From NCBI GenBank assembly GCA_026874595.1, contig CM049322.1, positions 47,463,840-47,527,839 of the forward strand: a DNA stretch of 64,000 nucleotides. The letters run 5' to 3'. The DNA comes from Sipunculus nudus (Eukaryota > Annelida > Sipuncula > Golfingiida > Sipunculidae). A model generated the notes under the pieces. It did no database searches. It saw only the letters and a program-made list of their open reading frames with translations, and was not told the DNA's origin. Below are positions 14,873 to 61,688 of this stretch, piece after piece. Numbering within the stretch: position 1 is the stretch's first letter; every line of letters begins with the position of its first letter. The position numbers and the translations under genes were made by a program.

Positions 14873-14936
14873 ATGGCCGCTATGACAGCTTCTATCTTGT
14901 TATGTATTTTCCTATGCAACTTGGTCTCATGCAGCA
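14873..14936 (+). CDS. Signal-peptide first exon, copy 1
   Basis: ATG opens 21 codons reading MAAMTASILLCIFLCNLVSC then S, a classic secretory signal peptide (short N-region, hydrophobic core, small residues at the end). It is followed by a consensus donor A|GTAAGT leaving a phase-1 intron. Equivalent exons occur at 21617, 55165 and 61625 with the same end phase. Phase-1 junctions after a signal peptide are typical of secreted modular proteins. The rest of the protein was not found, and the frame closes inside the intron if read through. The minus-strand 127-codon frame over this site is its shadow. Confidence 0.6.
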
Positions 14937-15039
14937 GTAAGTATAATTCATTTGCCCATTTTATCCCTAGCGGCAGCCTGCCATCTAAACGTCGATTGTT
15001 TTCATTAGCTCGTTGAGATTGCAGCACAGGTTTTAGCCT

Positions 15040-18000
15040 TCGGACCTATTTTAGTATAAATGGAAGTGCACGCCATTTCTAACAGTACTTTTTTAATTTT
15101 ATCTGTTGCCGAACTGTCCTTTTCCGTGAGATAAGACAAAAATTGACGTTATTCCCTTGGGTAAAAAATATATAATAAATATTACATTCATGGCTGACTT
15201 ACGTGTATTCATGCAGCAGTAATAAATAATGAAGCTGGTTTTACTGGGAAAGTTAATCTTAACGTCCGTCATGACAGCTTGACAGTGGAAATTGCGGGAG
15301 CCGAAACTGCTTCAAATTTAGTTTTGTTCGCCAGGTGAACCACCACAAATTTTGTTTAACAACATTTTTTCTTCATTAATTAGCAAAAAAAAAAAAAACC
15401 CAAAACACGACCACATAAACTTCTAATGTCACATAACACAATAACTATTTGATCTGACATTTGTAATGGGTTTTCTAGTATAACTTGTATCATGGCTCGC
15501 ACTCCCCTATTAGTTTATTAAAAAATAAGGGCTCAATTTGATTTTGTAATGGCTACTTCAAACTTTCCGTGGGTTACATGGATGGTACAGTCGTTATTGA
15601 CATTTAGATAGCGTCTTAATGTTCATAAAGTTTGTTTGTTTTATTCCTTTTTCATTTGTCAGAGTCATGGAATATATGCGCAATACGCGACATCATACTT
15701 TTAACCATCTAAATCTATTCAATTATTTATTGGGTGGAAATACCTTTTTTCAAGATCTACCGCTAGCCACTTTAAGATCCATATAGTTTTTAATTGAGTG
15801 TAAATCTGAAAATGTGATCCAAGTTTAGGGATTACAGGCAACAGCAATTGTCTCGTTAATTAGAAAACAGGAATTAATGTAAAAAAAAATGAATTTGGTA
15901 ACCTTCATTTGTGAGGTCATTCTATCCTGTTGATTACCTCCACCAACAAAAGCCGCAAAGGGTTATTGAATCATTATGTCCAAGCAATAGCTCGGAATGC
16001 TTCGTAATGAATTTTGATGATACTTTTTTGATGATACTGACGCGGCAAATGGAAAAAGGTAATTATTTTGTGATGGTTCAATATGAATTGATATGTGGAT
16101 GTGGATCGTGATCAACGACCCCCACCCCAGCTTTTATCTCTGGAAAACAAATCATCGATCGGCCTTAAATCTTAATACGTAAACAACTCAACTGAAGAAA
16201 GACTTCAGAAAGTGATAATAATATTTATAATGCAGAAATCATTTTTACAATATATACAGGAAAACAAGCTTGTTTTAGTTCACATAAAATATTTCTAGGT
16301 AAGACACCCATATTTGATACAAACGTAATACTTTGCGCTGAAGTAAGTGTGTCTCCGAATCACAATAAATCACATAGTTTCCAGAAACAGATACGGATAC
16401 GACCCCTGGGGCTTACATGCAGGGAAATTTTGGTCCTCCACTCTTTTTTGGTCAATTTGAAAAAGAATGAGGTGGTAAAATATATTAAAAATGTCGTTTT
16501 TACATCATCCTTTGAATCACACAGTTTAAAATCTATTTAATCTTGATATTGTCCCCAATCTGCATAATATATGACAAACTTATAACGAAAGAATAAAAAA
16601 GGAATAACAAATGCATTAATAGTTTTATTTTGGTCATTGTGCAGTTAACAACAAAATCATACCGTATAGTGGATTCCTACATCCGTCACAGAGGTAATAT
16701 TGAGAAACTTTGTTATCTTTAATATGTAGCATGAGACCCAAATCGGATAATACATCAGTACATAAATTTTCATGGATTCTTAGACACGCTTTGGCATATT
16801 ACTGCTTTCAGCCATAATCACATAAATGCACTGTCAAGGAATATAAATATGACTTTAGTGAACTCTAAAGCACTCATGTCACATAAATAATTTTTTAAAA
16901 AATTCCAGCTTGCCATGTAAATCATGTATAAAAGTCTTTGCTGCAAGCAGTCGTACCCTATATAAATTTATTTTAAATGATGTTTGGTAAAAATTAAAAT
17001 ATTCAGGAATCTTGAGCAAGATCATATCCCTGATGCTGATTCAGTAAGACCAGTATACACAGTAATTGATGATCTATCGTGCATCATTTGAGACGTACAG
17101 TGTGTATAAAAAAATAAAAAAACCAATACACATACAATCTGAAAATTCCTGCATACACCAAACCTCGATTCTTATAGCCAGGTTTATTATTTATTCCTTT
17201 TAAAAGAACTTATGTGAATTGTGGCTTAATCTCCGAACATTTTAATGAAATCTAGGAAATCCCTTATCAGAAAAATTCTTATAACGTCTCTGTGACGGGT
17301 GTATGAGCTAACCTACAAGCTTTTAGTAAACACAAAGTTTAATGGTTGCATATGTATGGAAGCTGAAAGGTCAGTTGTTGTAATAGGCCTGTTTAAATGC
17401 CTTTTGCAAAATTGCCAAATATCATTGTTGAATGCGGTTTATTTGGCGGTAAATGTACAAACATGCGGATATACAAGAAACAAAAAGCCTGTGTACGGTG
17501 GGATCGCCGTTTTCTAGTCTATTTTATCAGTGAACCAAGGGATTCCTAATATTTTTAGTTAATTAGACGTCAAATAAGGAATAGGCTTCTCAAGATGAGC
17601 AACTACCTTGTGATAATGGTTTGCTACTTATATAATTAGAAATTTAACTGACAAAATAGTTTTGGTTTAGTTGAAAATTATGAATCCCCATGTGACGAAA
17701 TCTCTGGCATCTTGTTGTGTATGCGGGGAACAATATAAAACAATTTTGCAGAATTGTTTTGTATAAGACAACATTCTATAACATTTGCATATTTTCCTTT
17801 TCAGTGAACTACTTTCCGCATTGTTCATCAGCAAATGTGGCACACTCTCTGAAGCAGTAATTATACTTTAAAACAAGCATTAACATTATTATATGCATAA
17901 GTTGCTTATAATTGTTCCGGCAGTGCACGGTACGATTCATGATTCTTTTTTTTTTTTGCACAATTCATATACAAAAACGAAATTACATGCAGACACATTT

Positions 18001-18890
18001 TACATGAACTCACATCGCTGTATGCAAATTGTAAGATGACAAATTAAATTTCATCAAGAGTTTCATTTAAATGAATCCAATTATATAGCCATGTGTTCAG
18101 ATAAAATAGAAAAGCCCTACAATAAGAGGACCTGAAATAATTTTTAAAAAATCACATCACACTGAGAAGAGTTTACGTCAAAAATATTATGCATATATGC
18201 AAAGAAGGTTATGGGGGAGCCTTGAGGCAGGTAGCTTGAATTAGCATCAGAATTATAATCAAAATTTGATTATTAATCTTCCTGACTTTATTCAAGGATT
18301 TTTATTCTGATAAGAGGAACAAAGTGTACCACTTGTTCCACTTGAATGCTTTAAAATTAACTTAAAATGACAAAACACGATAATATTATCGAACCTTAAC
18401 ATAAATTACAAAGAATCTTAAATGCATAGTCTGGATAAAATTTTTTTTTTCAAAAAGAAGAATTCAAGCCATTTTGTTCTGATGACAAGTTGATCAAACA
18501 CCTTTGCTTCTTTTAGTATCTATAGCTGCAAAATAAGTCGCTATTGAATTTATCAATGCGAACGGGTTTCTAAACACATAGAATGAAGTACTTTGCTCTG
18601 AAAAAAGTATGGACTCTGGTTATTAATTGAACAACCAAAACAAATATATGCATCGATATAAATCTCTATCCAGCAGTACACAGACGTTTCATTAAATGAA
18701 TTTGTTTTTTTTTTCAATTAACGAGTATAAAAGCCAGACCATTAAATTAATTAATAATAATAATTCTTAAAATATTTTAAGAAAGGTTCCTTGTTATATC
18801 TATACAAGCACAAATAACGACATTATGCGATAATAATTATTTATTTGATTTTACAGTGTCTCGGTGAATTTATCTCAATGCGATATTTGT
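15040..18890. other. AT-rich stretch with no recognisable gene
   Basis: Nearly 4 kb without convincing exons, tandem repeats or transposon ends. Short frames at 15911, 16349 and 17299 (+) show no motif. Probably intron or intergenic DNA downstream of signal-peptide exon copy 1. Confidence 0.4.
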
Positions 18891-19029
18891 ACAACTTTAA
18901 AGTGCCGTAAGGTTTAATGTGCGGGTATAGTCAGAGTAATGGTTTTTATGAGGTAAAAAAGTGATGGATCAGTGAAAATCTCATAGTAATGTATAATAAT
19001 ACATTTGTCTAAGGTTTAAGTAACCGTAT

Positions 19030-19900
19030 GATGCCAACAATGCATAGCACGTGACCTTGACCTTGTGACGTTCTTAAAAAATCATGATAAAATTTGTATA
19101 ACAACCCTGAAGGAACAGCCTGTATAAAAGTTTTGCTCTTTAAACAGGAAAGAATATTTTTTTAAAATGGATATTATATATTATGCGTATGATATCTCTG
19201 ACTTTTACCATGAACAAAATATGAGAGGTATTTTATTGCAATATATTAAGAAGTTAGTGAGGCTTGCCTTGTGCCATAAGTCGTCGAAGTGGTGTATTAG
19301 CGTTGTTGTTGCATAGATATAGGCCACTTTTAATACTTTTATCTATATGAAAAGAAACTAGAGAGTTTAAATAAATCCTGACTTTTCACTTACAATACAC
19401 CAGGTAATACTTGACATTAATTAGTAATAGAATCTTAAACAAACACCTAGAGAATACACATTTCACTCATAGGAAATGAAAAATAACGGTAAATAATAAA
19501 TGAAAAAGACGGAAAAGACTTTTAATAAAATTAAATATCATGAACTTGTTGACCACGCTGACCTTGACATTTTTCCAAATATCATCAAATATCACACAGT
19601 GTTAAAGTAATATTCCCAAGCCTTTATTTAAGTATATTTAATACATATGAAGTTATTCATGTTAAGATAATAATCCAGACTGCTGTTCCTGACAATTGAT
19701 ACCAATGATAAGTATATGAATCTTAAACGGACAGCTTGGGTAAAGAAGCAAAATGAACAAAATTAAGTTTCTTGCAATTGTTTACGCCTCTGAATTTGAC
19801 CTTCCGCGGAATATCATCAAACTTCATTTGAAGTTAAAGTTGAATTTATACTCATTCACATGAGGGGCAATTTGTTGCAATATGATAAACATTTTAAGAT
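19030..19900. repeat. Degenerate TGACCTTGA-containing dispersed repeat
   Basis: Three loosely similar segments spaced by roughly 240-500 bases: TGACCTTGACCTTGTGACGTT near 19052, TGACCTTGACATTTTTCCAA near 19559 with ATATCATCAAA and TTAAAGT, and TTGACCTTCCGCGGAATATC near 19796 with ATCATCAAAC and TTAAAGT. A similar TGACCTTGA motif recurs in the nested element at 45042-46573. Probably an old non-autonomous repeat. Confidence 0.4.
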
Positions 19901-20533
19901 GCTACAGAGCTTTTAATTACCCCTACCCCTAGCCTGGGAACACAGATTTACAAATTGTATAGTGTAAAGTGTATAAAAACATACTGTCACAAATAAATGT
20001 ACCACTTTTCGCACTTGCATCCACACTGACAATTAACCAGAGAAAATAAGCAGAAACCTGGTATCAATGGAAATTTTCTAGGCGATGGTGTAGGCATTTT
20101 GGTCTAACACCTCTCCTGGCTTTAGACTATAGCATAATCAAGCCCTTGACATGAACCATGACTGAGACTGCATGGCAGGAATATCAATTCGCGACCATGA
20201 CAAATCTAGCCGTAGCTCACCTGCGGTCTCACTATGATTCGTCGCTCTCTATTGTGCCATAAAACTGGATGCCTTCGCTGCACAATTTGCAATTAAGCCC
20301 AAGTGTGTGATCTAATTATAACAATAATTTAAATTCAATGCTTACACGCCTGTGCGGTGAGTCTTAGTATAAATAAAGCGGATTGGATTTCTTCAATTTA
20401 TTTATCTACATGACATCTATAAGTTAATAAATGTTTATGTTGCAACAACAATATATCATTGGATTATTATTTGTTACCGGTATATATAAAAGAAGATGAA
20501 ACTACTGAAAGTTAACCTGACACAAGGGTATCA

Positions 20534-20538
<5 letters not shown>

Positions 20539-20590
<52 letters not shown>

Positions 20591-20596
20591 ATACAT

Positions 20597-20627
<31 letters not shown>

Positions 20628-20628
20628 A
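20539..20628. repeat. (TA)n compound microsatellite
   Basis: Long TA run, an ATGTATGTATATACATATAC palindromic centre, then a second TA run; the whole can fold into a hairpin. Confidence 0.95.
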
Positions 20629-20899
20629 ATTTAAACGGAGGGATATGGGGACTTTAGATGTATCCACTCCCGCCCCTGTTTTTAAGCTTTTCAATACCAG
20701 TCCCTCCCCATATTCTTCATTTCTTGCTCCTTAACATTAAATTTGATTTATTTAATATTTTAAATCAAATTGAGAGTTTTGAATAAAAGTATAATCGTTG
20801 GAGGTGACACATGCATATTCATCTTCCAACAGTATTAATAATTAATAATGCATATACTCAGAGTCTATATATCGGAATAATATTCATAACAGTATAACA

Positions 20900-22420
20900 T
20901 CTATTTAAAAAAAAACTGCTGTTAACACGTTCAATGATCCAGCGAACCTCTTGGAAGAAAATCACATTGACGTCACAACAGTTTTTGTTGTCATTTAATC
21001 CAGGCACCATTCTTACTTAAACACAATGGACAATCCAGACTAGAGGTCACACAGATCTAAGTTACTCAACCAAAACATGCCTAATCAAAAATGTTTTATT
21101 TCAGCCACAATACTTGCTACAAAAAACAAGTGTGGATGACAGTGCACTTGTTATCCTGTCCTCACAGCTGACCTTTATAAACAAATGTCACCCTGTCTGC
21201 AGACAAACACCTCTTAGAACATGCTTATCTAGACTTTACATCGAAAGATAAACGTACAGTGACACTTCACACTTGGTAACCAAAGTTCTTGAAACATCTG
21301 AGTTCTTAGCTCAGCTGGGCATGTCAAATCGCCTTCGGTAGGCAGCTCCGCCCCCTGCCTGGATTTAACTCACAAACTCCTACATCGCTGGCCAAGTATA
21401 TTCCTTTACTTTAATTCCTTTAATTTAATCTCTGACCCCAAACTTGATATATATGTAAATGTATAAGTGTTTTATGCGATTTAGAACTGTGTCATACTGT
21501 GTCACTGGCTCTTGACATAAAACCATAACTTTAAGTACCATTGAAAGAGTAGCCAAGTATATACATAAGGTAGTGCAACCTGACTTTGGTGGGAGAGTCA
21601 TGCCAGTATTGCGGCCATGGCAGTCTCTATATTGTTTTTCATCTTTCTGTTCAACCTTGCTTCACCCAGCTGTAAGTATTATTCATTTGGCAGATTTATA
21701 CTTATTGTCATTTTTTTTCAGTGGTTGGGGCTGGTCTGTTCCCTTTGAACCGATTACACAGCTTACTTAACGATAAAGTAAAAAATGTGAAATGACTGAA
21801 AGGTACATGTATTTTTATACTATAACTGTTACTATTATAAGAACATGTGCTAGCTAAAACGATAAATGTTACTTTTAATATGTTATAATTTACTATCAAT
21901 ATTACATATACATATTTTTATTACCCACCCTTGGCGGCTGTGTGCATTTAACCCTACCTATATTAACGGTTTGATTCGTCGTTAATTATAGTTAGAGACT
22001 TTAATATGATTTCAGACACAATAAGTTATACAGTTCTATTTAGGATTTTGGATTACACTCAGTAACTATTGTTTTTCACATACTGTTACATATCGACTAT
22101 TGCATCGAGTTAATTTGTAGTTAAGATAATATAATAATAAAACTAGAACTATTGGTAAGAGTTTAACGGGAACATTAGAAAAAGAATCAAAGGCCTATCG
22201 ATACAGATCTGAATAAGGCATTCATGGAAGTTCATGACAATTTTGTGACAAAGCTAGAACAGTGGTTTATTAACCATTAGCAAACTGGTCCCACCGCTCT
22301 CAGAGTAGAGACATAATACAAAGGTACCATGCAATATATCGCCTCTGATAGCATACACATAAAACAATGGCGGCGACTTTGTAGTTATATGAGTTGTTTT
22401 TACTTGAGGTTTCCTTTACA
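20900..22420. repeat. Segmental duplication block around signal-peptide exon, copy A
   Basis: Aligns with gaps to 53160-55400 and 60540-62360. Shared landmarks: ACGTTCAATGATCCAGCG / ACGTTCCATGGTCCAGCG / ACGTTCCATGGCTCTCTTG, a CGCCTTCGGTAGGCAG-type segment, CCTGCCTGGATTTAACTC, the signal-peptide exon, and then a sentence of intron ending in GCACACATCAAA-type text. It is the 3' half of the macro-unit whose 5' half is the ADH block. Confidence 0.7.
21617..21671 (+). CDS. Signal-peptide first exon, copy 2
   Basis: Eighteen codons, MAVSILFFIFLFNLASPS, then T|GTAAGT: a phase-1 donor exactly as in the other copies. Upstream lie AGCCAAGTATATACATAAGG (TATA-like, about 65 bases before the ATG) and GCAACCTGACTTTGGTGGGA shared with the copy at 55165. 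The hydrophobic core is intact. Downstream exons not recognised. Confidence 0.6.
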
Positions 22421-22539
22421 TGCAATAAATACTTTTAGAGTGGGGTAGATTTACATAATTGCTTAAAAGAGCTAAAGGCTGCCGGTCCCAACTCCATACA
22501 ATTATTGTCAGTTAGGCAGATTTCCCCTTGCTGTATGAC

Positions 22540-23240
22540 TTATTTTATATACAGTCTATCCGGTTCTTGTTTTTATGCGATTGGTATGCAAATGAGATAA
22601 GATATAATGCATTATCAATATTAATTTGACACAAACCAAGATGCCATGTGTGACAGGGCTCGACCTTTCAGCAACATTTCGCTGACAAGACAGAATTTTT
22701 AAACTTTGCTTATTTTCTTCCAGGAAAAGACGTTAGGATTTTATATATGAAATTAAAAATGCAAAATCTGTTGAGCTACAGCCATATTTCGCATTACCTT
22801 TACGCGGAAACTGTACAAAAAACACTATCATAAATATTACTTTCATTTTAGGCCTAATCTATGTTGTAAACCATGCTGATATAAAGTAATTTACCGACTT
22901 ATTATATTTGAGAACACACATAAAAGTTTTTGGTGCTGCAACTATTCTCTAATAGCTCCACAAATTTGATAGAGGCTACATAAGTATTACAGGTTTTCTT
23001 ATATATAATCTTATAAATTCTCTTTCTATCAAATTACTTTGATGCCCTCCAATACACAGTTATTTCATGGATCCTCTGAAGAATAAAATGTGAAGCTTCT
23101 TTTGGGACTTCGACTAAATTACTCGATAAAGTATTGAATGAGAATGATTGGTCAACTATATGACGGTTGAAAGACCCTTTGTTCTCAGCTTTCAAATACA
23201 ATGCAGCCTTGCGCTACAAGACCGGTAATTTGCATGTCTT
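22540..23240. repeat. Duplicated non-coding block P2, copy 1
   Basis: Aligns to 34800-35300 and weakly to 63800-63900: GACAGGGCTC, CATATTTCGC, AATTAAAAATGCAAAATCTG, GATCTACAG/GAGCTACAG, GCGGAAACTGTA, and CACAAATTTGATAGAG-type segments in the same order. No coding frame runs through. Confidence 0.75.
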
Positions 23241-25350: not shown

Positions 25351-25453
25351 AAGGGTCACAGAACATGATTTTTATTAACAGTAAACACGCAGTGAGTTGC
25401 ATTGGAATATGCCCTTCAAGCTACAGACAATGACTTTTCAGAAAATCACCTAC

Positions 25454-38570: not shown

Positions 38571-38599
38571 AGTGGCAAACACGCATTTTTGGCTAGTAT

Positions 38600-40970: not shown

Positions 40971-41538
40971 GGGTCACGTGACACAGGGACTTGACATCAC
41001 ACTCACAAACTTCCCTTTACAAACGCTGAAAGTGGAACGGTTTAACCGCCTTGGTAGGAACTTGATATTATATAAAGATGACCATGAAACTTCACCTGTG
41101 AGTGTTGATGATGGTGATTGTACTTATCCCGCCCTCCTGGCCATAATTAGAGTAGTGCCACGGATACTGACAATGGAGAAATTAGAATTTTATGAAACCA
41201 ACCTGACCGGAGTAGCTCTCCGCACACTCACAGAATATCTGCCTGATACACATCTCATAACACTCACATTCAGGGCCTGCAGGCTCACATCACAGGATGT
41301 TTTGTCAGTAGTGGACAAAATTCCAGAATGTCGAACCCTCAAAAACTTCCTGGTTGAAAAAGCTTTTCTGGATGACAACATATTCCAGCTAATAAACAAC
41401 ACAGACAACTTTGCGGGCCTTAGGTCACTACAGCTGGAAAGTTCTCTTTTAGCTTGGTATGGTATATCTGCCAATGTAAGAGATAAAATAAAACAAACCC
41501 TGACAGAGAAATTTCCTAATCTGGATCTAAGGCTGTAA
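40939..41538 (+). CDS. LRR-like C-terminal part of the NACHT protein, shifted frame
   Basis: Open in the +1 frame relative to the preceding exon, from a stop at 40936 to TAA at 41536-41538. It has leucine-rich, roughly 27-residue periodicity: LITLTFRACRLTSQDVL, LRSLQLESSLL, MEKLEFYETNLTGVALRTL. This is the expected ligand-sensing LRR tail of an NLR. The switch from frame 0 must occur within 40939-40967. The simplest explanation is a one-base insertion or two-base deletion (pseudogene allele or assembly error). A donor-like CC|GTAAGG at 40967 is the alternative, but no sensible short intron fits because the frame is open straight through. The protein ends at NLDLRL. Confidence 0.7.
   Translation, partial: ACLVPQYSVRKGHVTQGLDITLTNFPLQTLKVERFNRLGRNLILYKDDHETSPVSVDDGDCTYPALLAIIRVVPRILTMEKLEFYETNLTGVALRTLTEYLPDTHLITLTFRACRLTSQDVLSVVDKIPECRTLKNFLVEKAFLDDNIFQLINNTDNFAGLRSLQLESSLLAWYGISANVRDKIKQTLTEKFPNLDLRL

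Positions 41539-47550: not shown

Positions 47551-47552
<2 letters not shown>

Positions 47553-47608
<56 letters not shown>
47553..47608. repeat. (TA)n microsatellite
   Basis: Long TA run. The periodic Ile-Tyr frame at 47524-47712 is its translation. Confidence 0.95.
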
Positions 47609-47611
<3 letters not shown>

Positions 47612-47854
47612 ATATTCGAAGTCTTCTTTTCTATTGTGATATAGGGGGATTCCAAAGCTTGCTCTGCCATTCACTGGGAAAACCCTTGTTACTAAACCGT
47701 GGCACTGTGTAAACACATGACTCGCCATGATATGTAGACATGTAAAGTCTACGTTCTCTTTACATTAAGATGTTCAGGAGTGTGATCTGAGATGTTCCTA
47801 CGTTTGGAAGTAATGTTAATTACTATTACGTGTCTGTTAATTACTTTAAGGTGT

Positions 47855-50572
47855 CTGCTTGGCGTCGTCTCTGTTTAAGATCATCCGGGAGTTACGAGAC
47901 TTAGAGGAAGCGGGGTTACCTAAAAAGAAGATTCGAATATATATGACATTATTTTTTTAAACAATTTTTAAAAAATCTTTTTCAATTTACATCTGGTACT
48001 CGTTATATATCACTATGCCGAAGAACATAGCAATTCGATAACATTTTATGATAGGATGCAAGGATTGGAAAAGTGTATCATGTACACAAGCTCCCTATTG
48101 ATATAAAGGTCTTAAAACTGTTATTGATCAGGTTACTATGAAAAAGAGACACCACAATATAAGCGTCAAGCCTGAAGCTGGTGATCCGAGCTTGCCACCA
48201 ACAACACTGATGCAGCGTAGGTATAAACGTGACAATATAACGCTGATCTCCCCCGAATAGTCCCAACACAACCATCAAAGACCCCTGGTGACAGATAGAT
48301 AAACACAGCATATGCCGAGAGAGAGAGAGAGAGAGAGCTATCGAAATCAACAGAATAAGTTTGGCTTGTTATGCATTTAGCAGTACATGGATGACAAATT
48401 TATTAAAAATTACCATAGAATGGTCCATGACCAATTAGCCTGATTCTTTGGTCACTTTGTTTTACGGACAAGTCGTTCGCAATGCATCACCATAAAATTT
48501 AAGGATTGACTCATGTGGATTAAAGTTTGAAACACCACAGATATTGTGGTTTCCGTGTCAACCCAATCTATCCACTGCCATATGAACCTGGTTGGGAATG
48601 AGGTTCCTGACATTTTCTGCATTTTCACCCGCTTCTTCTGGAAACATTACACATTATGAAATCCGCATAAATGATTATTTACCTGACGTATGCTTAGAAA
48701 ATAAATTACCAAGGAGGTACGTCGGTTCCCTAGGAGGCATAACAAATACGTAAGAGACGCTCTCTCCCGTAGACAAGATCAAGATTTTGTGAAAACATTA
48801 ATTTTTCGGATGTTGAAAACACCCATTAACTCCAGAAGTGGATTGATGTTCCATATTATGTATAAAAAAGAGACCTGTGTGTTTTCAAATGTGAAATGCA
48901 ATTACCTTGTATACGACGGCTCGTCGGTGTTTTGTTATTTCATTACCAAAGCGAATATTTTTTATTATGGCCAGAAAATACAGGGAAACCTCCATTTAGT
49001 AGGCACCTCCATAAAGTGGGCACCTTTACATAGCCAAGCGAGCGTTTAACCATTCAACTGTCAAGGCCCGTATCTCACCGAACATATTGCATCTGGATAT
49101 AGAAATATAGAAGTTGTTACATAAGTTTGAGTGATATATATCCCTTCACTTTCATAGTGTAAAAGAACTTTTATACTCTAAACTTATTTTCCTGGGGATA
49201 AGGTACTGTAAGAAAAAAAACGCATTCAGTACCAATGCCATATTCGATAATATATCTGATTCCCTTATCCTTATACGCTCTGTTTGCAATTGGTGCGCAT
49301 GCGCGTAAATATTCTTAATACTATGAATGCATTACGGAAACGGTATACTTCACAGGTTTCACGTGTTCACACTTTGATGGCGCGAATACCACATTATGAA
49401 ATTAATATCAAATCTACTTGTGGTTTCACCGATGCTGCTAATAACTATGACGCAAATAAATTTGAGTTTAGATTAAAGAAAACGTGGATTTGAAGATAAT
49501 AAAATGGTATTCCGTTCCGTATTCAGTGAATATAGGCATAGTGTATAAAAACGACATAATACTAGGGATTCCGAAGGGAAAGAGGAAATAAGGTTTATTG
49601 CGATATCGTACGTGAATCTGGGGTCATAAGAGCACAACAAGGAGGTTTTCGTGGTTTTCAAGAATTTAGTGATATTGGTTCATAGCGAATATGGGATGTT
49701 TTCCTGCCCGCTTTACAATCAGGCAAAACTGTCATTATTTTAATGAATCTGTTTCTGACGAGGTTTTTTTTACTCTGTGCCCAAGTCCTCCTATAGTTCG
49801 TCGTGGAGGGTTTTATTTTATTGGGTCTTCCGTCACTGACGTGAATTTTGTTCAGTGCATGTCATTATTATGTAGTTCCAAGCAAAATTTCAGCTACGAC
49901 CCTTAGCAAGTCGTAGCAAAATAACAGCTACATAATTATTTGCAATAATATGTGTATTACATCAGGCTTTTTGTTCTTACCGGCTGAATACAAAATTTCC
50001 CGGCAAAATCATCCCGCCACAAGGACACACTGTTTCTATAAGACCTGTTTTACACGTTGTTATGGTTCTGTCAAGGTAAACAGTGTACGGTTGTATATTT
50101 ACCATAACAAGATTGCGCGACCAGAGGTCTATTCTTGAGTCTGTCCGACTTTTACCATTCAAGGAAAAAAAAATGAAAGCCGAAATATAGAAGAAACACC
50201 AATTAAAAGCTAGAACAATCTTTATTTGTGAAGTATGCGTGCGCGCTATGTTTAAGTTTAGCGCCACTGATAGCGCCCGGTGAAAGCTTATTTCTACTGA
50301 TGTACAGGAGTAGCCAAACGGTCTTAGGAAGAAATATTGAAAGACCATACTATTGTAAAGAGAACACAGTGTATTGCATGTATATTTAATATACCTTGTG
50401 TGTGAATAGATCCCTTTAGAGACCTTCTGAAAGACAGTAAAACGGCTGACCTTTTACCCTTGACCCACGTCGACCTCTGGCACCAGGTTTCTTTTGGAAG
50501 CATCGCCCCTTGCTGTCCGTATACACCACAGCCCCAGTTCGCCAGCTCCCACTATCAGCATTTCAGCCTTGC
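47855..50572 (-). pseudogene. ADH pseudogene, copy B (four exon remnants)
   Basis: Minus-strand remnants in gene order: Rossmann exon (50455-50572) behind TTCTGTTGATAG with KAEMLIVGAGELGLWCIR; exon at 48550-48637 behind TGTTTCCAG with GENAENVRNLIPNQVHMAVD; exon at 48200-48284 behind GTCACCAG with GSLMVVLGLFGGD, then frameshifted; last exon at 47855-47919 behind TTCTTTTTAG with VTPLPLSLV, then TGA. The YVVV exon has been deleted (only its flanks near 50930-51060 remain), and the zinc and GHE exons were not found. Compared with copy A it keeps a better Rossmann motif and the intact MVVLGLFGG strand. It is not a functional gene. Confidence 0.75.
50455..50572 (-). pseudogene. ADH copy B, Rossmann exon
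   Basis: Reads KAEMLIVGAGELGLWCIRTA; GAGELG fits the GxGxxG dinucleotide-binding turn. The first codon is split (G|GC), which fits the HG end of the YVVV exon in copy A. Confidence 0.75.
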
Positions 50573-51289
50573 CTATCAACAGAACTACATACTCAAGGAA
50601 ATCTGACATTTTCTCAGCTGAGTCCTAAAGAAACATCATTTTCGATATGTTTCGACTGGGTTGTTTCCCTTAGTAACACCAAATGAATGTTTAACCGTTA
50701 TGTTGAAAATGTTTAGTACCTGGTAAGTGGTGTTGCATCATAGCTTTGTCACGGGTTATGGTTATTCTGAAGAAAAGACAAAACCACCGTATTCAGTATA
50801 CGATTTTAGACCTTAGGGCGTTAGATTCGTGTAATCATTCTCGTTATATAAGAAACACTATATACATACACACCTTTTCACATATTTAACAGCGGGTAAT
50901 TTAAGTTCATTTGACAATACAGTTTATTATGCTAGTGATGTAAATTTTAAATTAATTACCAACCTATACTGCGCTGGTAAGAGCGAGGTTCGTTACCCAA
51001 CCATTTTTTAAAATATTAAGTCAGAATTCGTATGAAAGCATCAGTGATATGATTACAAGTTTATAAAGATATAAATCTTTACCTATATATATATATAATA
51101 TTTATTTAACAAAACATACTTCACGTGATACTTAAGATATCAAATTATACAAAAAATATTTGAGGTTGGGGTTTTTTCCCCAGTTTGAAACAAAACAGCA
51201 CAAGGAATTTGTTTCATAATCTCATAGATTTCAAAGAACTGTCTAAATGTAGTATAATTGCATTACCAAATACCTTTAGATCAAGTGTC

Positions 51290-51900
51290 ATGATGCCTGT
51301 CATGGGGTGCGGCCTTCACTAAGATCATTAATAGAGCATATGGGCACCATGTCTTTGATGGGCCTTACATAAGCCCGAAAAAAATGATCTTCACATTATG
51401 CCTGGAACTATCGTTTTTTTTCTCCGCGAGGAGGGTATGCGTTTAATCCCGTTTGCAGGTGTTTGTGTGTATATTTGTTCACAACGTAACTCTTGCAATC
51501 AAAAGGGCAGTCTCATCAGGGCATTTCGAGAATTGGCCACTGAAGAATCGATTAGATTTTTGTGTGGATACGGTACATGATCCGGATACAGGAATGTCAT
51601 CAAGGAATATTCAAAAATAAAGGTCACTAATGCACGAGCGAACCCGGTAATACGGACCGAATGTGTGAAGGCAAACAAGGTTTCGGGAGTATCCAACAAT
51701 ATGACCCCCCCCCCCGACACACACATGCACACACATGGCGGAGGCTTGTATTACTTGCATTGTAGTTAATGCTAATGCGACAAGAATTGATTATCACTAA
51801 TAATATTCTGAGAATAAAAATGGAATGTTTTTCTCATACAGAGAGAATTTTTAAAAGAGCAATCATCAAAGTTATAAGATTATGAAATGTCAATGTATGG
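51290..51900. repeat. Duplicated block P5, copy 1
   Basis: Aligns to 58940-59400 (GAGGGTATGC, TTGATTAGATTTTTGTG / TCGATTAGATTTTTGTG, GAAGGCAAACA.GGTTT.GGGAG, C run, AATATTCTGA.AATA, TTTCTCATACA.AGA). Frames at 51398 (+) and 51499 (-) are not conserved as protein. Confidence 0.75.
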
Positions 51901-53230
51901 AACATGAATAATGAGTACTCTGTAATATTAACCCCTAGATATGTTTCATGGTTTTAATATTAACACTAACAGGACACTACAGGACACTTACTAACAGTTT
52001 TATTTTAATATGATTGATGCATTACCATAGCTGATAGGAAATATATCGACACTTAACTATTTGACAAGACTTTAACACTTTATCAGCTGTCATACGAAGT
52101 CATGCTCTAACAAACGGTTGATTATAATTTAAGATGTTGTACTTATATGTTATACATTGCTAGTATGGTCTTGTAGCATGTAAAAAATTGATAATAATAT
52201 CTTATATTTTACTGTAGGTTATTCGAACCTGCTTGCACACGAATAAGCCCCAGAAGTGAAGTCAGTAATTGGCAGTGAGTATCTTTTCTATTTATGTCTG
52301 CTCAGTATTGAGAACTAGTGTTTATCAATGACATAAGTCTCGATCACTTAGATAATGATAATATGTATAAAGGATCACATATTTAAAAGTTTGATATATA
52401 AACATATAACCTAATTTAAATATTAGCTGAAGATATTTTGATTGTGTGCTAAAGGACACTTATTAATGCTGTATACCGTTGGTAATGCAAATCGTTTAGA
52501 TGTAATTGAAAGTAATTTTCCACCACAATGAAGCTTTAAGAGAACTTGTTCTGTAACGTTCATTCTTAACTTACTTCTCTTTGTATTTGTTTCAGTATCT
52601 GATTCATCAGATTATAAGTAATTAGAGATGAAGCCATTGTTTGCGATACTATAATTATTGAATATATTCACACTCTTAACATCTAGATTTCTAGATTTCA
52701 CATAACTTATTACATACCTATTTGCTTTTATATACATATATTTGCTCTACTACATTAAACTATATATACACGTACTTCAGGTGTTACTTGTATGTGTGCG
52801 TATGCTGATCAATGAATTGGAAATTGGAACCTAATATTCGGTTACACCAGTAAGAGACGGGATGTACCAGTAAACTAGTGCATTGACAAACATAAAACAT
52901 CATCCTCCAATTACAACGATATGAATTAGCCAAGTAGCTGTCTAGTTGCAGCTATTTAAATTTTATTCACTAAGTCAATCATCCACATTTTAAGTATGCA
53001 TCACTGAACCAAATAAAACATGTCATAATCTATATCCGCAAAAAAAATCTGTCCGTGATAATTCCAGTGTTGATAGGAGGCGTGATCTTAGATGCAAAAG
53101 CAATTTTTATTCGAGTAAATGACAGTCAGCTCTTACATTTGATTTGAGGGATTCAGTTTAAAGGTACACCTTCGTTGAAACGTTCCATGGTCCAGCGTAT
53201 TTCTGATAGGATAATCTAATTGGCGTCACA
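51901..53230. other. AT-rich, no recognisable gene
   Basis: No exons. Part of it (52850-53220) aligns to 60340-60720 of copy C (for example GTACCAGTAAACTAGTGCATTGACAAACAT versus GTACCAGCACACAAGTCCATTAACAAACAT). Confidence 0.45.
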
Positions 53231-53238
53231 GCAGAGAA

Positions 53239-54394
53239 CAGTGAAACCTCTTCTAGCGGAAAACTCACTAATGCGAACACTACATCTCAATCCCTTCAAA
53301 TTTGCCTATTTGTTATGTTTAACGTAAACTTTCTTGTCCCGGCTGTGTGAATAGCACATATAATGACTCTCTAAAACGGACAGACATGGCAAGTTCTATT
53401 TCTATTTACATATATGCATGCATGAAGGGAGCTGGAGCTCCGAGGTCGTAACCTCCTGTGACCTGTATTGGTCACAGAGACAGCCCAGAAACCAGCGTGA
53501 TTTAGTGAACCATCGGGATGGTATGGTCGAAATTGTTTTTATTTAAGAAAATAAGTAGATATTACAATCAATTTTTAATTAGGGTTTCCCAGTCCATCCA
53601 AGCTTTCAAACAGCTTTTTATTCAATAGGACCACCATCTGCCGTTCTCGCTTTGTTATCAGTGTTCGGCCGGGGAGCTGAATAAGTTAGTGACAGATTGC
53701 TCTTTTTACGGTGAATGCGTGGTGAGGTACATTGATTAACTACCAATCGATGTTTGTATCAATGTTTTGTAAACTACAAGGGTGTTGATTTTTGCAGTTT
53801 AAACTACCAATCCCGGCATTTGCTATTGTCAAATCATGCCATACCTGAACGAAAGGTTTCGTTTTCACATAGAACCTATATAAAATGAACTTTCAAAGAG
53901 ACAATAATTCTACATTGGTTTGCCTTATGACCACAAAGACCAGAGCTCAAGTTTCATATATGTGTTCTTCATCACTATCTGTTAACAAGTCATCATACTG
54001 TTCATACGCTATCAATGGACAATATACAAATATATCTAATGCAACCAGGCATGAGATACCGCTTGTGGAGAAGAAGCTGGTACATCGAAGTGAAATATGT
54101 GTGTGAGGCCAATGAACCCAAGAGTGAAAGAAAGTGTTTGTCTTACTGTTATATAAACTATTTTATAAATAATATTTTATAAGTAACAAATGCATATTAA
54201 AGCCATTTTGAATATAATCTAAATATAATTAATGCATTTCAAATTAACTGTAAATTATTCGGAACGGAAGACACCTGTAATATTCAATAAAGAATTATTG
54301 CAATAAAATGTACAACTCCTCTTAACAGGACAACTCACTAATACGGACAAAATCCTCAAGTACCTTGAGTGTCCGGCTTAGAGGAGTTTTACTG
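53239..54394. mobile_element. Degenerate Tigger/pogo-like non-autonomous element
   Basis: Left end CAGTGAAACCTCTTCTAGCG then GAAAACTCACTAATGCGAAC; right end, read on the minus strand, CAGTAAAACTCCTCTAAGCC then GGACACTCAAGG, with GTCCGTATTAGTGAGTTGTC further in. CAGT(A/G)AAACCTC...GGAcA ends and 'CTCACTAAT(A/G)CG' subterminal text are typical of Tigger-like DNA transposons. The TA target duplication is not intact. A 73-codon frame at 53885 shows no transposase motif. Confidence 0.5.
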
Positions 54395-54693
54395 TCATAT
54401 AATTTTCTCTCCAGAATAGAAATCCCACAAACCTATCTTGCTTGGCGAACCTTTTCTGTTATCACAACAAAAAAGGTCATTTTTCAGCTGCAAGACGGGC
54501 CACATTCAACAGCGTTAATGGCAGTCCTTCACAAGGGCTAGCGACATTTATTAATAGTGAATAAAAGCCACACTATTAGTCTTGGCCGGTCAACACGCCT
54601 TCGTCTGAAAGCCTAACTAATAAATACAAGCTATGCATCATGAGGTAGGTCCGCCTCCTGCCTAGATTTACCTAAAACAACTGGTAAAGAACA

Positions 54694-54702
54694 CTACATA
54701 TA

Positions 54703-54751
<49 letters not shown>

Positions 54752-54771
54752 GGAGAGAGAGAGAGAGAGAG
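54694..54771. repeat. (TA)n and (GA)n microsatellites
   Basis: TA run followed by GGGGAGAGAGAGAGAGAGAG. The GA run is at the same place in copy C (61174-61234). Confidence 0.95.
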
Positions 54772-55059
54772 GCCGGGTGTCTCCACAATCATCAAACATT
54801 GCTGGCATCCTTGACAGCATATCTGCTCCTCGGAAACAGATCGTTTTTAATCAAAAATAATTTAACATTCAGAACATGAACTTTCCTTGAGTCTAATAAA
54901 TGTAACTACTCTCAAACCTGAATTTCTAACTCACTATCACGCGATAGTGAGTTATATATACACAGGCCAAGGCTCGGAAATGGTAGTAACATAACGCGTA
55001 TGTTTTTGTAAGCCTTTGTCAAGGCACCCATATGTGCAAAGCAAATATGTCAGTTTACA

Positions 55060-55164
55060 ATACGTCATTGATTGGTATATTTATCTACGAAGATTCGAGT
55101 AGTCAAGCATATATACATGATAGTACGATCTGAATTTGGTGGCAGTTATTCCAGTATAGTGGCC
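55060..55164 (+). promoter_or_regulatory. Candidate core promoter of signal-peptide exon copy 3
   Basis: Inverted CCAAT (CATTGATTGG, 55064-55073) and TATA-like AGCATATATACATG near 55107 lie within 100 bases of the ATG at 55165. The same two motifs recur before the exon at 61625 (CATTGATTGG at 61532, AGCATATACG near 61574); only the TATA-like one is clear at 21617. Confidence 0.4.
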
Positions 55165-55219
55165 ATGGCTGCCTCTATATTGTTTTTCATTTTCTTGTGC
55201 TTCCTGGCCTCAGGCTGCA
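55165..55219 (+). CDS. Signal-peptide first exon, copy 3
   Basis: Eighteen codons MAASILFFIFLCFLASGC then A|GTAAGT, giving a phase-1 intron. It has a strong hydrophobic core, with small residues and Cys at the end. It is nearly identical in layout to copies 2 and 4, and both the flanking 5' sequence and the first 40 bases of intron are shared. The frame closes soon in the intron, so the mature protein must come from exons not in the window or lost. Confidence 0.65.
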
Positions 55220-55424
55220 GTAAGTCTAATCCATTTGTCAGTTTTCGATCCAAATTTGGCATGTCAGTTTTGTGATGAGCGCAAAACATAGTTAATTAGA
55301 GAGAGTGCACAAGTAAACTGACCCAATCGCCCTGAAAGTAGTGTACCATACATTGCCTTAGCTCTCTAGCAACACACATCCAACAATGGGGGCGATATTT
55401 TAACCATTTGAGATTTATTCTACT

Positions 55425-55545
55425 GACTGAAAGTCATCTTAGCTATAGCGATTAACTCTTGGTGCGTCGTCTGTCTGTCAGTTTATCCGTTTGGACCTAG
55501 ACCTAGAAACTTCTTACTGAATACGCATGTAGTTCCATCTCCTTG
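55425..55545 (+). repeat. Dispersed GTCCG/GGTCA repeat, copy R4 (truncated)
   Basis: ACTGACTGAAAGTCATCTTA, a GTCGTCTGTCTGTC tract and CTCCTTGGAAACCTG, then an abrupt switch to GC-richer unique sequence. Confidence 0.75.
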
Positions 55546-55709: not shown

Positions 55710-57579
55710 ACAGTTCCTCATATCCACAGCTTTAATACGCTAGCTAACGTCACAAATCTGATCGTCTTATGGCCAATCATCCCAAGGAAATATCCTGCTT
55801 GTCATTAACTGCATGGATTCTAATATGGACACGCCTCCATTGCGCAAACCATGAGAAAAATCAGGTAAGCAGGTGCGTTGTCTTTGATGTTTACAAAAAA
55901 CAATATTTGTGCCCTGTTACTATTTGTGAACATGGGCTTGCCAGTGAATTTGTCAAATTAAAATAACGGAAGAGTTAAGAAAACACACATGGAACAAGCG
56001 ATTACATATTTGCAGACAATCTTGATCATCTCATATATTTTTGTTTATTTTGACATTTTCTTTGCTATTGTGACATAAGGTATTCTTTCCACTGATTCAA
56101 GCCACCCATTGACTGGAATTAGGGCCAATGCTTGCTTTGCAGTTCACTGGGAAAACCCGATTCTGAAGCGTGGCACTGATTACACGAATGACCGGCGGGT
56201 TTGTCGGCACAGATAACACGTCCTATTTACTGTTAGGATGTAACGCAGTAATTATTATGACGTGTTTGTTGAGTAAAAAAATCCCTAGATAGTTTTTACG
56301 CGATTCGGTCACTTTCTAAATGATTCGTTTTTAATCTTGGCCTTCACCTGTTTTTCTTCAAGCAGTATTATTTTTTCACAAGAGAACAAGGTCAAGAGTC
56401 TGTGCAAAAAATATTATTGTTGAAAACACCGTTTACCTTCATAAGTAGATTGATGTTCCAGAATATTTTTTAATGTTCCAAGGGATAAGGCACTGAAAGA
56501 AATAAAACGCATTATGTTCCAATGCCATATTAAATAGATATCGGATTCCATTCTCTTTATTAGCACTGTTTGTAGTTAGTGCGCATGCGCGTAAATATCC
56601 TTTCTATTGTGTATGCATTAATGAAACGGAATACTTACGATGAATGTTCACACTGCGTTTCCCCGGATACCATATTATGGAATTCGGTATCAAATAGAAC
56701 TGTGGTTTCACAAATCCTGCTCAAAACGCGAATAAATATAAAGATAGTTTGAACGAAACGTGGATTTGAAGAAAAAGGTATTCCATTCCGTATTCAGTGT
56801 GTATACATGACATAACACCAGGACTTCCTAAGGGAAAGAGGAAGCAAGTTATATTGAGATATCGTGAATCCTGAGTCATAGCAGCGCAACTCGGAGGATC
56901 ATTCGTGTTAAAGGTCGTGAGGGTTTTCAAGAATTAGTGTCATCGTTTTATAGCTTATATGGGATGTTTCCCTCCCCGATCGAGCAAAGCTGTCATTATT
57001 TTAGTGAAACTGTTTGCGCCGAGGATTTCTATTCAGTCTCCTTATAGTTGGTCATGGACACTTGTATTGGGTCTTCCGTCACGGATGTGGACCTTTTCTT
57101 CCGTGTATGTTCTTACCCAGAAACATTTCAGCTACGACCCTCGGCAAATCGTAGTGAAATTAAAGCTACATAACTATTTGCATTTATATGTGTATTATCT
57201 CACACTTTCAGTTCATTTTTGCTTAATACAAACCATTCCCGGCTAAAACATCCCGCCACAGGAACACACTATTTCTATTTTACCTGTTTACACGTTGTTA
57301 TGGTTCTGTGTGGTAAACACAGTGTACGTGTGTATATTTAACATAACAAGGCAGTGTGATCAGAGGTCCCTTTATGAGAATGCGCGACCACAGCCAAACA
57401 GGGTGAAAATACAAAGAAAGCCGAAACATAGAAGAAACAGTTTGAAGCTAGAAAAATCTTGATTTGTGAAGTCTGGGTGTACGCTATGTTTACGTTTAGC
57501 GTCACTGATTGCGCCCGATGAAAGTTTATTTCTACTGTTTTACTTTAGTAATCAAACGGGTTTAGAACCAAATCGTTCT

Positions 57580-57800
57580 AGTTGTATACTACCCAGGAAT
57601 CGGGAAAAGCTACAAGAATGAACAGGCCTGAAATACCAGGAAGGCAAAGTGTAAATTGAGTCGGTCGAGACTGACGTCGTCGGCGGTATCAGACTATATA
57701 CAAACTCCTACCTTTCCTTTTTTATCAATTTTAAAGTACACATTTCCATTTTTGATTCTAAATATTAATCTAGTTCATACATTGGTTCCTAGAATACACT
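57580..57800. repeat. Duplicated block P4, copy 2
   Basis: Matches 34110-34330: GGGAAAAGCTACAAGAATGA, ATACCAGGAAGGCAAAGTGT, TATATACAAACTCCTACC, TCTAAATATTAATCTAGTTC. Confidence 0.75.
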
Positions 57801-58437
57801 CAATGTCGCATTTCTTTCGGTTTTGATTAGCATCTTACCAGCGCTTATCGTGGCACTGAACAATGTTTAATCAGGATCCTGATGATCTAAATTGTTAGCA
57901 GGGTCTATATTGAAACATAGAGTGTGTTTTTTCAGGTTTCACTTATTACTTCCTGTTAAAAGGTCTTTGGTATATTTCATTATTGCTTGGATTCCCTGAA
58001 AAAAGGGAAAAAGATGCAAAGTATGAATTCACACAATAAATATAAACATGAGCTTTTTTTCTTGCATTAACGCTTTGTCTAATCTTTGCCCATAATTTAC
58101 CACTTGCCAACTCTGTGTCTGTTATACATGGAAAATGTTATTTTTTGTACATCTGGACAAGATTAAAACGACCGAAAAATGCCAGTACTTGCAGATAATT
58201 TTGAAGTGCAAAAGACTTTTTTTATATCTAGACTAAAGTCATGTTTCAAATGAAGAAATTATTGAACGTCCTTATTTGGGCGTTGACTGTATATTCCAAC
58301 TATGTCTAATACATCTATCTCTCATCTCTCAATAATTGCTAATTTGTTTAACTATTACTATTGCTACTATTACCATGTTTATTAAAGAAGTGGGAGGGGC
58401 CATGGGGGCAGGGGTAGCTTGGCGTCTTTTAAATAAT

Positions 58438-58438
58438 A

Positions 58439-58473
<35 letters not shown>
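58438..58473. repeat. (TA)n microsatellite
   Basis: About 17 TA units; open frames over it on both strands are spurious. Confidence 0.95.
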
Positions 58474-58476
<3 letters not shown>

Positions 58477-58939
58477 GTAATCATGCAAATATCTAGAGCA
58501 GGCAGCTGCACCCTTATATATATATGCATATTACATGTACTGACCCACTAGAACCAGTACTTGCGAAATCCTGAATCCTCCATGGATATTAACTGAAATA
58601 AATCCTCAGAAACGAACATGAAAAAGGCATATGGTTTTTTAGAATCCTGAGATGTGCCGCATAATCACACACACGCTTGCATCCACGGCCCTACCGCCTG
58701 AAACCAGCAGGTTTTTCATGAAAACTATCTTAAAAATCATGCTACCGAAAGCCATCTACTAGTGATCACATAACATTATGGCCTAGATTCTGAAGATTGA
58801 GGTGCGTATGTTATGAGATTGAGGCTTGTGTCTCTAATGGATATATTTTAGAAATAATTTCCAACCTAAAACGAGTTATATATATTTTATGTACATGATG
58901 AAAGAGCCAGGAAATATGTCTCATTTCAAACAATTCTAA

Positions 58940-59400
58940 CTCAGGCATCGAAGGTGAAATCATGTATACAAAAGTATGTCTTTGGTGGGCCAAACCTAAC
59001 CCCGAATAATGGCATAACCCAACCAGAGTAAATCCTCATGAACATTAATAAGATCTTTTTCCCCTAGCTAGGAGGGTATGCTTTCAACCCAGTTCGTGTG
59101 TGAGTTTGTATGTTTGTGTGTTGATTCACAACAAAACTCTCGCATTCATGGGCACAATGTAATGCTTTTTCCAGACCATTCCAAGGATGGGCCAATGAAA
59201 ATTGATTAGATTTTTGTGCACGAAGGAATCTGGGAAGACGAGCAGAATAAATGAAGGCAAACACGGTTTTGGGAGCATCCTGCATTAGGACACCCCCCCC
59301 CCCCCATAATATTCTGAAAATATAATTGGAATATTTCTCTCATACAAAGATAATGTTAAAAGAACAATCATCACAGTTAAAGATAATGTTATGATATATA
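58940..59400. repeat. Duplicated block P5, copy 2
   Basis: Counterpart of 51290-51900, including the C13 tract at 59293-59305. Confidence 0.75.
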
Positions 59401-59849
59401 TTAATGCTTTCCTTGACGTACATCACATTGAAAGTCTTAAACATTTGATCCATGGGCCATGTTGCTAAGCTGATTTTTTTCGTATAGGCAAATGATGCAT
59501 TAATTATTGATATATTAGTTTATGCTTTAAAATTTATTGAAACTGAAATAATTGAAGGGGTATTAATCAAGTTTATATAAAATGCATTCAAAGTGGTTTT
59601 GCCTATATTTTAATCAAACTCTACATCCTCACATATATTAATGTGTGGCATATTATTATAATATTAATTATGATCTTATTTAAACAAAGAATCTGTTTAG
59701 CAGCCGGGAATAGTATGAAGACTGACTTAAAACAGAATTAAAAATTGTAGTTTTGCCTATAGCTAAGAAAATTTATAGAAGACACAGATGTATAGTTATA
59801 TGTTTCCAAGAAGGTTTAACCTGGATGCTAAGAAACTTTTAAGTCCAAC

Positions 59850-60180
59850 AGTTTTGGTTTGTACCCTGTCTGATGTTCAGGGTACCCAAAATCAGTTTCC
59901 CAAAGATGTAGTATATAGGTTACAATGACCTAATTTCAGACTTCCTAGTAGATTTAACCAGGAGCAGTACCCTAGCTGAATGTTACACACTGCAGAGTTC
60001 CTCCATTCCCGAGTGCTCAAATCATATTTCTTCCATGGTTTGCAAGTGAAGGTGACAGTGACATCAATTCGTGGGACCCTCTTTTTGAAGGCTCTGTATT
60101 TTAAGTATGAATCCTCCAGGGCCATCTATTACAATGTGTACCCTGTCTGAATTTCATCATGTTAAAACACTGTTTGTTTC
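59850..60180. repeat. Possible short dispersed repeat (TACCCTGTCTGA)
   Basis: TTTGTACCCTGTCTGATGTTCA at 59857 and TGTGTACCCTGTCTGAATTTCA at 60135 enclose about 280 bp that includes AGGTTACAATGACCT, a one-mismatch AGGTCAnnnTGACCT. The 77-codon minus-strand frame here has no recognisable motif. Confidence 0.4.
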
Positions 60181-61173
60181 CCATATTTAATAAACTATAC
60201 GTCACCGTGACTTAATTTAATTGTACAATTGAAGCTTGGCGTGACCGGCGTGGATTTATTTAAATATTTTTTAGACATCGATCACATGCAATCCTGGAAA
60301 CACCTCCTGCGATGGTCATAGCTCGTTTCATTCTCAATCACACAGGACCAGCAAGATTTGACGTACCAGCACACAAGTCCATTAACAAACATAAAACGTG
60401 GGAATGCAAAGATATGAATTAACCAGGTACCTATCAGTGAAATGGTTATACAATCCAAATTCGAAAAAAAAAAAACTCAGTTCCGTGTTGCTAGGAGATT
60501 TGACCTTAGAGCCAGAAACAATGTTTATTCGGCGTAAACAACAATGACCATTCAGCTTTTACATCCCATTTAACAGTTCTATGGTTAATAGAACCTCTAG
60601 AAAATTCACGGTCCTAGTTCCTCTAGCCAAAAGCCAGAGTATAACACAGGTATACATGCGAGAAAACGTTCCATGGCTCTCTTGTAAGAAAATCAAATTG
60701 ACATCGAAGCAGAGTATATTTGTCAGTTCTTTTAATCCCTGAATACAATTTTCTCTGTAGGACTAGCGTTCACACAAACGTGCCTTGCTGGAAAAACTAT
60801 TCTTTTTGTTTCAGCTTTAACATGGGCCACATTCAACAGCGTCAATGGCAGTTCTTCATGAGTTGGAAATGACGTATAATCCTGACAAGTAGAAAAAATT
60901 CCTACTGGGCCAGCGGCGATAATGATATATCCTTGCTCTAGGCTCGACTATATTTTTCATGTCTCTACTGGAATTCTGGCTTGCCAAAGCAACTCACGCT
61001 TATCATGAATAAAAATAAAAAAGCATCATATAGCCTAAACCAATAACTGGTAGTTATTAGTCTTGGCTGGTCGACACACGCCTTCGCCTGAAAGCCTAAC
61101 TAATAAATCCATATGCATCATGAGGTAGGTCAGCCTGCTGCCTGGATTTAACTCAAAACAACTAGTAAAAAAC

Positions 61174-61175
61174 AC

Positions 61176-61213
<38 letters not shown>

Positions 61214-61234
61214 AAAAAAAAAAATAAAGAGAGA
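61174..61234. repeat. (GA)n microsatellite with poly-A
   Basis: GA run, A-rich interruption and further GAGACA units; counterpart of 54752-54771. Confidence 0.95.
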
Positions 61235-61624
61235 CAGAGAGACGCGGGGTGTCCTGATAATCAACAATCATTGCTGGCATCTTTGACAACATATCTGGTC
61301 CTCTTAAACAGATCGTTTTAAGTCCAAAACATGTTTAACATTCAGAACATTAACGGCCCACGAGTCTCATAAATGTAACCACTATCCCCAGTGTGGATTT
61401 TATACAACTGAATTTCTACCTCACTACTCTGCGAGATATATAATCAGACCAAGGCTAAGGACTGGTATTACATAAAGGGTATATTTTTTTGTAAGCCACT
61501 GTCAGCGCACCTATCGTGCAAAGCGAATACGTCATTGATTGGGCTATTTACCCAAAAAGATGCAAGTAGTCAAGCATATACGCAGTGTAGTGCGACCTTA
61601 TTTTGCTGGCATAGTTAATCCAAT

Positions 61625-61688
61625 ATGGTGGCCTTGTTAGCCTTTATATGGTTTTTCATTTTTTTGTACTACCTGGCCTCAGGCAGTG
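61625..61688 (+). CDS. Signal-peptide first exon, copy 4
   Basis: Twenty-one codons MVALLAFIWFFIFLYYLASG then S, followed by G|GTAAGT (phase 1). It aligns with copy 3 over exon and flanks, including CCTGGCCTCAGGC and the intron start GTAAGTCTAATCC. The ATG used here is three codons earlier than in copies 2 and 3, because the aligned ATG has changed. Downstream exons not seen before the window ends, where repeat R2 begins at 62375. Confidence 0.6.

Follow-up and report, generated by a model that had tools for sequence, protein, structure and literature searches.

Signal-peptide exons of Sipunculus nudus as probable first exons of tandem genes for a predicted lectin-transmembrane-NACHT receptor

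We analyzed a 64,000-nucleotide stretch of the Sipunculus nudus genome (the window, C17:47463840-47527839 in the 1.43-Gb assembly, where C17 stands for contig CM049322.1) carrying four similar signal-peptide exons, designated A–D. Each is probably the first exon, coding for the signal peptide, of one of several tandem paralogs for a predicted single-pass membrane receptor with extracellular lectin domains, a transmembrane (TM) helix, and an intracellular NACHT domain. Judged from their sequences, the copies in the window are mostly decayed: exons A and C are orphaned, exon B is followed by a NACHT relic, and exon D heads a broken gene body. The assignment rests on homology, exon order, matching splice phases, and the constraint on the body exons; transcription, splicing, topology, ligand binding, and signaling are inferred.

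An initial sequence-only reading described four exons that start with ATG, encode a hydrophobic core, and end at a GTAAGT donor in phase 1; a pattern scan and a profile search of the window both confirmed them. In each exon, the frame is open from the ATG through a hydrophobic stretch of 18 or 21 codons to GTAAGT in phase 1; the best 10-residue Kyte-Doolittle mean is 2.9–3.4, and the 18 residues that start at the second ATG position include no K, R, D, or E. The scan (ATG, 16–30 codons, core mean of at least 2.0, at most one D/E, GTAAGT in any phase) returned A–D and nothing else from the plus strand, plus a single phase-2 match from the minus strand, compared with a mean of 0.55 matches (0.28 in phase 1, maximum 2) on both strands of 60 first-order Markov sequences. 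Because A–D are homologous, they count as one event rather than four. The profile built from A–D recovered only these exons with E-values of 1.9e-51 or better, as expected by construction, and the next match had an E-value of 4.4. The indels in multiples of three codons proposed earlier disappeared upon alignment, which is gap-free over 64 bases; the 18- and 21-codon forms reflect two alternative ATGs spaced by nine bases. TATA-like motifs precede exons B and C, ATATA occurs at 61576 upstream of exon D, and no TATA-like pattern was matched within 110 bases upstream of exon A. It is in itself ordinary for a signal-peptide exon to end in phase 1 (PMC1626468).

Searching the regions around the window with the same profile revealed four further first-exon copies (E–H) within 0.6 Mb, so that eight copies reside on one chromosome stretch, all on the plus strand (Table 1). 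In copies E and H, the first exon is followed by lectin exons 2–5, a TM exon with RRKR at its end, a short cytoplasmic exon, a linker exon, and a NACHT exon. All exons of these chains are open, with the exception of exon 1 of H, which contains a stop, and the phases read from the sequence are 1 | 1-1 | 1-1 | 1-1 | 1-1 | 1-0 | 0-1 | 1-0 | 0. The phases are thus compatible throughout, and all chain exons are predicted to belong to one transcript. The linker of H has diverged to 30–40% identity. That the NACHT acceptor is not in phase 1 does not make this exon unrelated, as seven exons separate it from the first exon in copies E and H.

The proposed search for phase-1 acceptor exons beyond the window thus yielded lectin exon 2 for E, H, and D. 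The absence of any downstream exon holds inside the window for lectin and TM exons, but such exons begin just past its end. Exon D leads to a broken body 2.5 kb on, with an exon 4 reduced to its initial 36 residues, only the end of exon 5, and a TM exon that has lost most of its length and runs into a minisatellite; neither exon 3 nor a linker was detected there. The suggestion that A–D mark the 5′ ends of tandem genes gains support from E, H, and the broken D, where the same first exon precedes a recognizable body. For A, B, C, F, and G, a search of 231,840 bases turned up no lectin, TM, or linker exon. Exon B has only the NACHT relic behind it, no body exon was found between exons C and D, and none of A–D heads an intact gene, A, B, and C having no lectin or TM exons and the body of D being broken.

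Table 1. Coordinates of the first exons, gene-body exons, and duplicated blocks. Positions refer to the window unless preceded by C17.
Feature	Position	Strand	Remarks
Signal-peptide exon A	14873..14936	+	Both ATG positions; donor GTAAGT 14937-14942
Exon B with intron-1 tract	21547..22974	+	Homologous to 61565-62382; partly to 34837-35221 and 63774-63925
TATATA, putative promoter	21558..21563	+	TATA-like; 59 bases 5′ of exon B ATG
Signal-peptide exon B	21617..21671	+	Second ATG position; donor GTAAGT 21672-21677
NACHT exon of decayed unit	39561..41535	+	Open 469 codons; match resumes in another frame from ~40954
Old duplicated block with exon C	47652..55439	+	Pieces align to 56125-62396
TATATA, putative promoter	55110..55115	+	TATA-like; 55 bases 5′ of exon C ATG
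Signal-peptide exon C	55165..55219	+	Second ATG position; donor GTAAGT 55220-55225
Second copy of the block, with exon D	56125..62396	+	Pieces align to 47652-55439
Signal-peptide exon D	61625..61688	+	First ATG position; donor GTAAGT 61689-61694
D body exon 2, phase-1 lectin	C17 47527980		Window-equivalent 64141; 141 bases beyond window end
D NACHT exon	C17 47531532		Open; 671 codons
First-exon copy E	C17 47447075	+	Upstream of window; donor GTTAGT
Copy E exon 2, phase-1 lectin	C17 47451448	+	Matches C-type-lectin chains
Copy E TM exon			MNAKPQGMATHYTALIVSCSIGGLAVFTGILAGMFLWRRKR; phases 1-0; ends in RRKR
Copy E cytoplasmic exon			Phases 0-1
Copy E linker exon			Phases 1-0
Copy E NACHT exon			Acceptor phase 0; 672 codons
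First-exon copy F	C17 47975800	+	Intact
First-exon copy G	C17 47988523	+	Intact
First-exon copy H	C17 48002403	+	Downstream of window; in-frame stop
Copy H NACHT exon	C17 48025461	+	639 codons

The domain identities follow from matches to solved chains and families. Lectin exon 2 matched C-type-lectin chains in the PDB (best E-value 2.5e-8), and exons 4 and 5 together matched snake C-type-lectin-like and Reg4 chains (best E-value 2.6e-4), giving two C-type-lectin domains in the chain by sequence match. NACHT was recognized in the window relic by Pfam (PF05729, E-value 1.1e-20), and its homologs in E, D, and H are open exons; the domain also matched NLR proteins such as NLRC4 (PDB 8fvu and others; E-value 2.8e-8). 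The signal peptide and the single TM helix were both identified by hydrophobicity only. With a TM exon and a predicted intracellular NACHT exon in the body, the simply secreted product envisaged earlier no longer fits. The body exons clearly bear the mark of purifying selection, with dN/dS (nonsynonymous over synonymous divergence) of 0.15–0.44: 0.22 (E/H) and 0.20 (E/D) for exon 2; 0.15, 0.17, and 0.44 for exons 3, 4, and 5 (E/H); and 0.36 (E/D), 0.22 (E/H), and 0.34 (D/window) for NACHT.

Relatives of this architecture occur elsewhere in the genome. An exon-4 query had 331 candidates, of which 150 were scored; this gave at least 146 matches with an E-value of 0.001 or better, most of those listed being less than 60% identical, a C-type-lectin-like level. 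We examined 13 related loci in 3.2-kb stretches. Eight of them, at C17 3.0–4.8 Mb, are 67–78% identical in exon 4 and all contain exons 3, 4, 5, and TM, with exon 2 in six; the TM exon is thus present in E, H, and 8 of the 13 relatives. The relative at C17 4.83 Mb carries a linker and a NACHT exon on the same strand, the latter being 64% identical to that of E up to the edge of the stretch examined.

Several observations weigh against the assignment. The hydrophobic core of A–D is preceded by no charged residue, the cytoplasmic exon was detected in E and H only, and 5 of the 13 related loci have exons 4 and 5 but no TM match in their 3.2-kb stretch. Furthermore, the NACHT exons of E and H share only 36% identity (synonymous differences per site, pS, of 0.73), whereas their lectin exons are 66–91% identical (H stretch C17:48016205-48027377). 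This discrepancy, together with a TM-NACHT interval of 2–9 kb that holds a minisatellite in some copies, would suit an arrangement with separate genes for lectin-TM and NACHT, belonging to two neighboring families that were duplicated together. We consider such an arrangement distinctly unlikely, since all four units followed to NACHT (E, D, H, and the one at C17 4.83 Mb) agree in order and strand, the TM exon of both E and H begins in phase 1 and ends in phase 0, and the linkers of E, H, and the 4.83-Mb relative end in the phase 0 that the NACHT acceptor calls for. Because NACHT is far more diverged than the lectin exons, copies may have exchanged ectodomain or NACHT with one another, and separate genes for the lectin and NACHT parts of E and H appear less likely than such an exchange.

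The first exons themselves supply the remaining contrary points. Their flanks had been described as diverged, which was overstated: they are homologous and align over hundreds of bases to kilobases (897 columns for B and D, 285 for A and C), and same-strand pieces of the C and D units from 51349 on lie at offsets of 6.3–7.6 kb. Comparisons among B, C, and D show no better conservation in the exon than in the flank, with identities of 51/64 exon bases versus 428/546 upstream for C-D, 46/64 versus 454/644 downstream for B-D, and 48/64 versus 46/59 upstream for B-C; the corresponding values involving exon A are 45/64 versus 98/174 upstream for A-C and 43/64 versus 23/46 upstream for A-B. The initial intron bases are conserved like the exon (C-D 22/27, A-C 15/19, A-B 19/26, B-C 15/19), in comparisons of 19–27 bases that are short and bounded by the ends of BLAST matches. 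Minimum changes are flat over the codon positions, with 10, 10, and 11 after the second ATG and 11, 11, and 15 over 64 bases, so the codon-position check recommended earlier spoke against constraint. In addition, nonsynonymous differences per site (pN) exceed pS in C-E, D-E, and E-F.

The earlier hint of purifying selection on these exons consequently survives in part. Across all four copies, pN/pS is 0.40, compared with 0.90 on average under neutrality (P = 0.012), which moderately supports selection on the first exons themselves, but it rises to 0.50 (P = 0.12) without A and to 0.77 for C-D, and with the flat codon positions the case for constraint looks weak. Ranked by pN/pS among 482 windows in 21 aligned pairs (two overlapping), the A/C exon frame is lowest, and C/D and B/D are sixth and eleventh in the collapsed list; adding copies E, F, and G gives a pooled value of 0.58, a figure with no null for comparison. 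In neutral simulations, for which the ancestor and thresholds were picked after the data were seen, the fraction of runs that jointly retained an open frame, GT, a core, and freedom from charge was 9e-5 to 1.2e-3 with four copies and 0.8–1.4% with B, C, and D. Whether A–D are all dead relics now evolving neutrally is, in our estimate, an evenly balanced matter, and such a state would be compatible with their descent from receptor genes. The equal divergence of exon and flank among B, C, and D, the C-D ratio, and the lack of an intact body behind any of A–D suggest so, whereas the retention of an open frame, donor, and charge-free core in all four is rare under the neutral simulation.

Several copies could instead be live alternative first exons with their own promoters, F and G (and H) serving the H body and A–D the D body. 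Copies F and G are intact with no body of their own within the 80 kb examined, the proximal H exon with its in-frame stop precedes an intact body, and all copies share strand and phase. We nevertheless regard this alternative as rather unlikely: E adjoins its own body and is self-sufficient, the D body is itself broken, A and B would require introns of 42–49 kb spanning the NACHT relic, and loss of other exons explains the orphans equally well. Also doubtful is the broader scheme in which a lectin-NACHT receptor couples outside recognition to a NACHT switch while its bodies are driven by interchangeable promoter-plus-signal-peptide exons, with H usable via F or G.

Within the window, lectin, TM, and linker exons were searched for 5′ of the NACHT relic and none was found. 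NPHP3_N and weaker P-loop families match the same stretch as NACHT; besides these, Pfam gave nothing at cut-off in all frames of the plus strand (1-35900 and 38702-64000) and no family on the minus strand (1500-5500, 11000-25900, and 47400-64000). Sub-threshold matches to Atrophin-1 (0.26), DUF3915 (0.16), and CofH_C (0.025) were dropped. An Rfam search of the window returned no family and ARAGORN no tRNA. A 75-base open frame at 50080-50154, copied at 57319-57393 with a shared ACAG compatible with phase 1 and present in a third, inverted copy, came directly after the signal exon in the pN/pS ranking. Its frame has a pN/pS of 0.42 versus 0.79–1.45 for the other five, with codon positions flat at 7, 9, and 8. 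It was set aside as a second exon, though not disproved, after the lectin exon had turned up. A conserved block 3′ of B, C, and D was rejected as an exon because gaps break its frame.

The window also contains a 34-base minisatellite family in four separate arrays (6615-7086, 8556-10501, 11626-11806, and 26758-27293) and a 28-base minisatellite at 35935-38580, 5′ of the NACHT relic, with a strong GC skew (-0.69 at 36001-38000). Unit D and the C17 4.83 Mb relative likewise have CATCAC-type repeats, located between TM and NACHT. A duplicated tract (2619-2857 and 50425-50674) has a partly conserved open stretch on the minus strand, neither copy matching a Pfam family at cut-off, and a repeat pair at 42945-43197 and 46999-47198 (~90% identity) is much younger than the other duplicates. 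Farther downstream, C17:48043058-48045999 shows long minus-strand frames resembling, by eye, the reverse transcriptase of a non-LTR retroelement.

NLR proteins usually reside in the cytosol, and transmembrane C-type-lectin receptors combine a signal peptide, C-type-lectin domains, one TM helix, and symmetrical phase-1 exons. The receptor predicted here shares the latter features, whereas its intracellular part is a NACHT module. It has NACHT in common with NLRC4-type NLRs but places a membrane-anchored lectin ectodomain before it, and no CARD was seen. In a working copy, the phase-1 donor of the first exon would be joined to the phase-1 lectin exon, and the product would reach the cell surface with two C-type-lectin domains outside, one TM helix with a basic stop, and a linker and NACHT nucleoside triphosphatase inside; a ligand bound outside would then cluster the NACHT domains inside. 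A similar layout of extracellular recognition domains, TM segment, and intracellular NACHT, with no CARD reported in the sections concerned, belongs to AjNLRC4, a sea cucumber membrane NLR that is reported to bind microbes and drive phagocytosis (PMC8699970). AjNLRC4 differs in its immunoglobulin (Ig) and Ig-like ectodomain and two reported TM segments, in place of two C-type-lectin domains and one TM exon (PMC8699970). By analogy, the lectin receptor may likewise act in microbe binding and phagocytosis. Sponge membrane-bound NLR architectures include NACHT proteins with predicted TM segments, and the sections of that report concerned name no lectin ectodomain (PMC12909245) such as the one here. 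A limited literature search of main-text passages found no described protein combining C-type-lectin, TM, and NACHT; for cnidarians, a supplement of PMC8260672 lists 35 NACHT-associated domains. Copies E and H are the ones open to cDNA testing. If the prediction is true, an animal without antibodies would join surface recognition and NLR-type signaling in a single chain.

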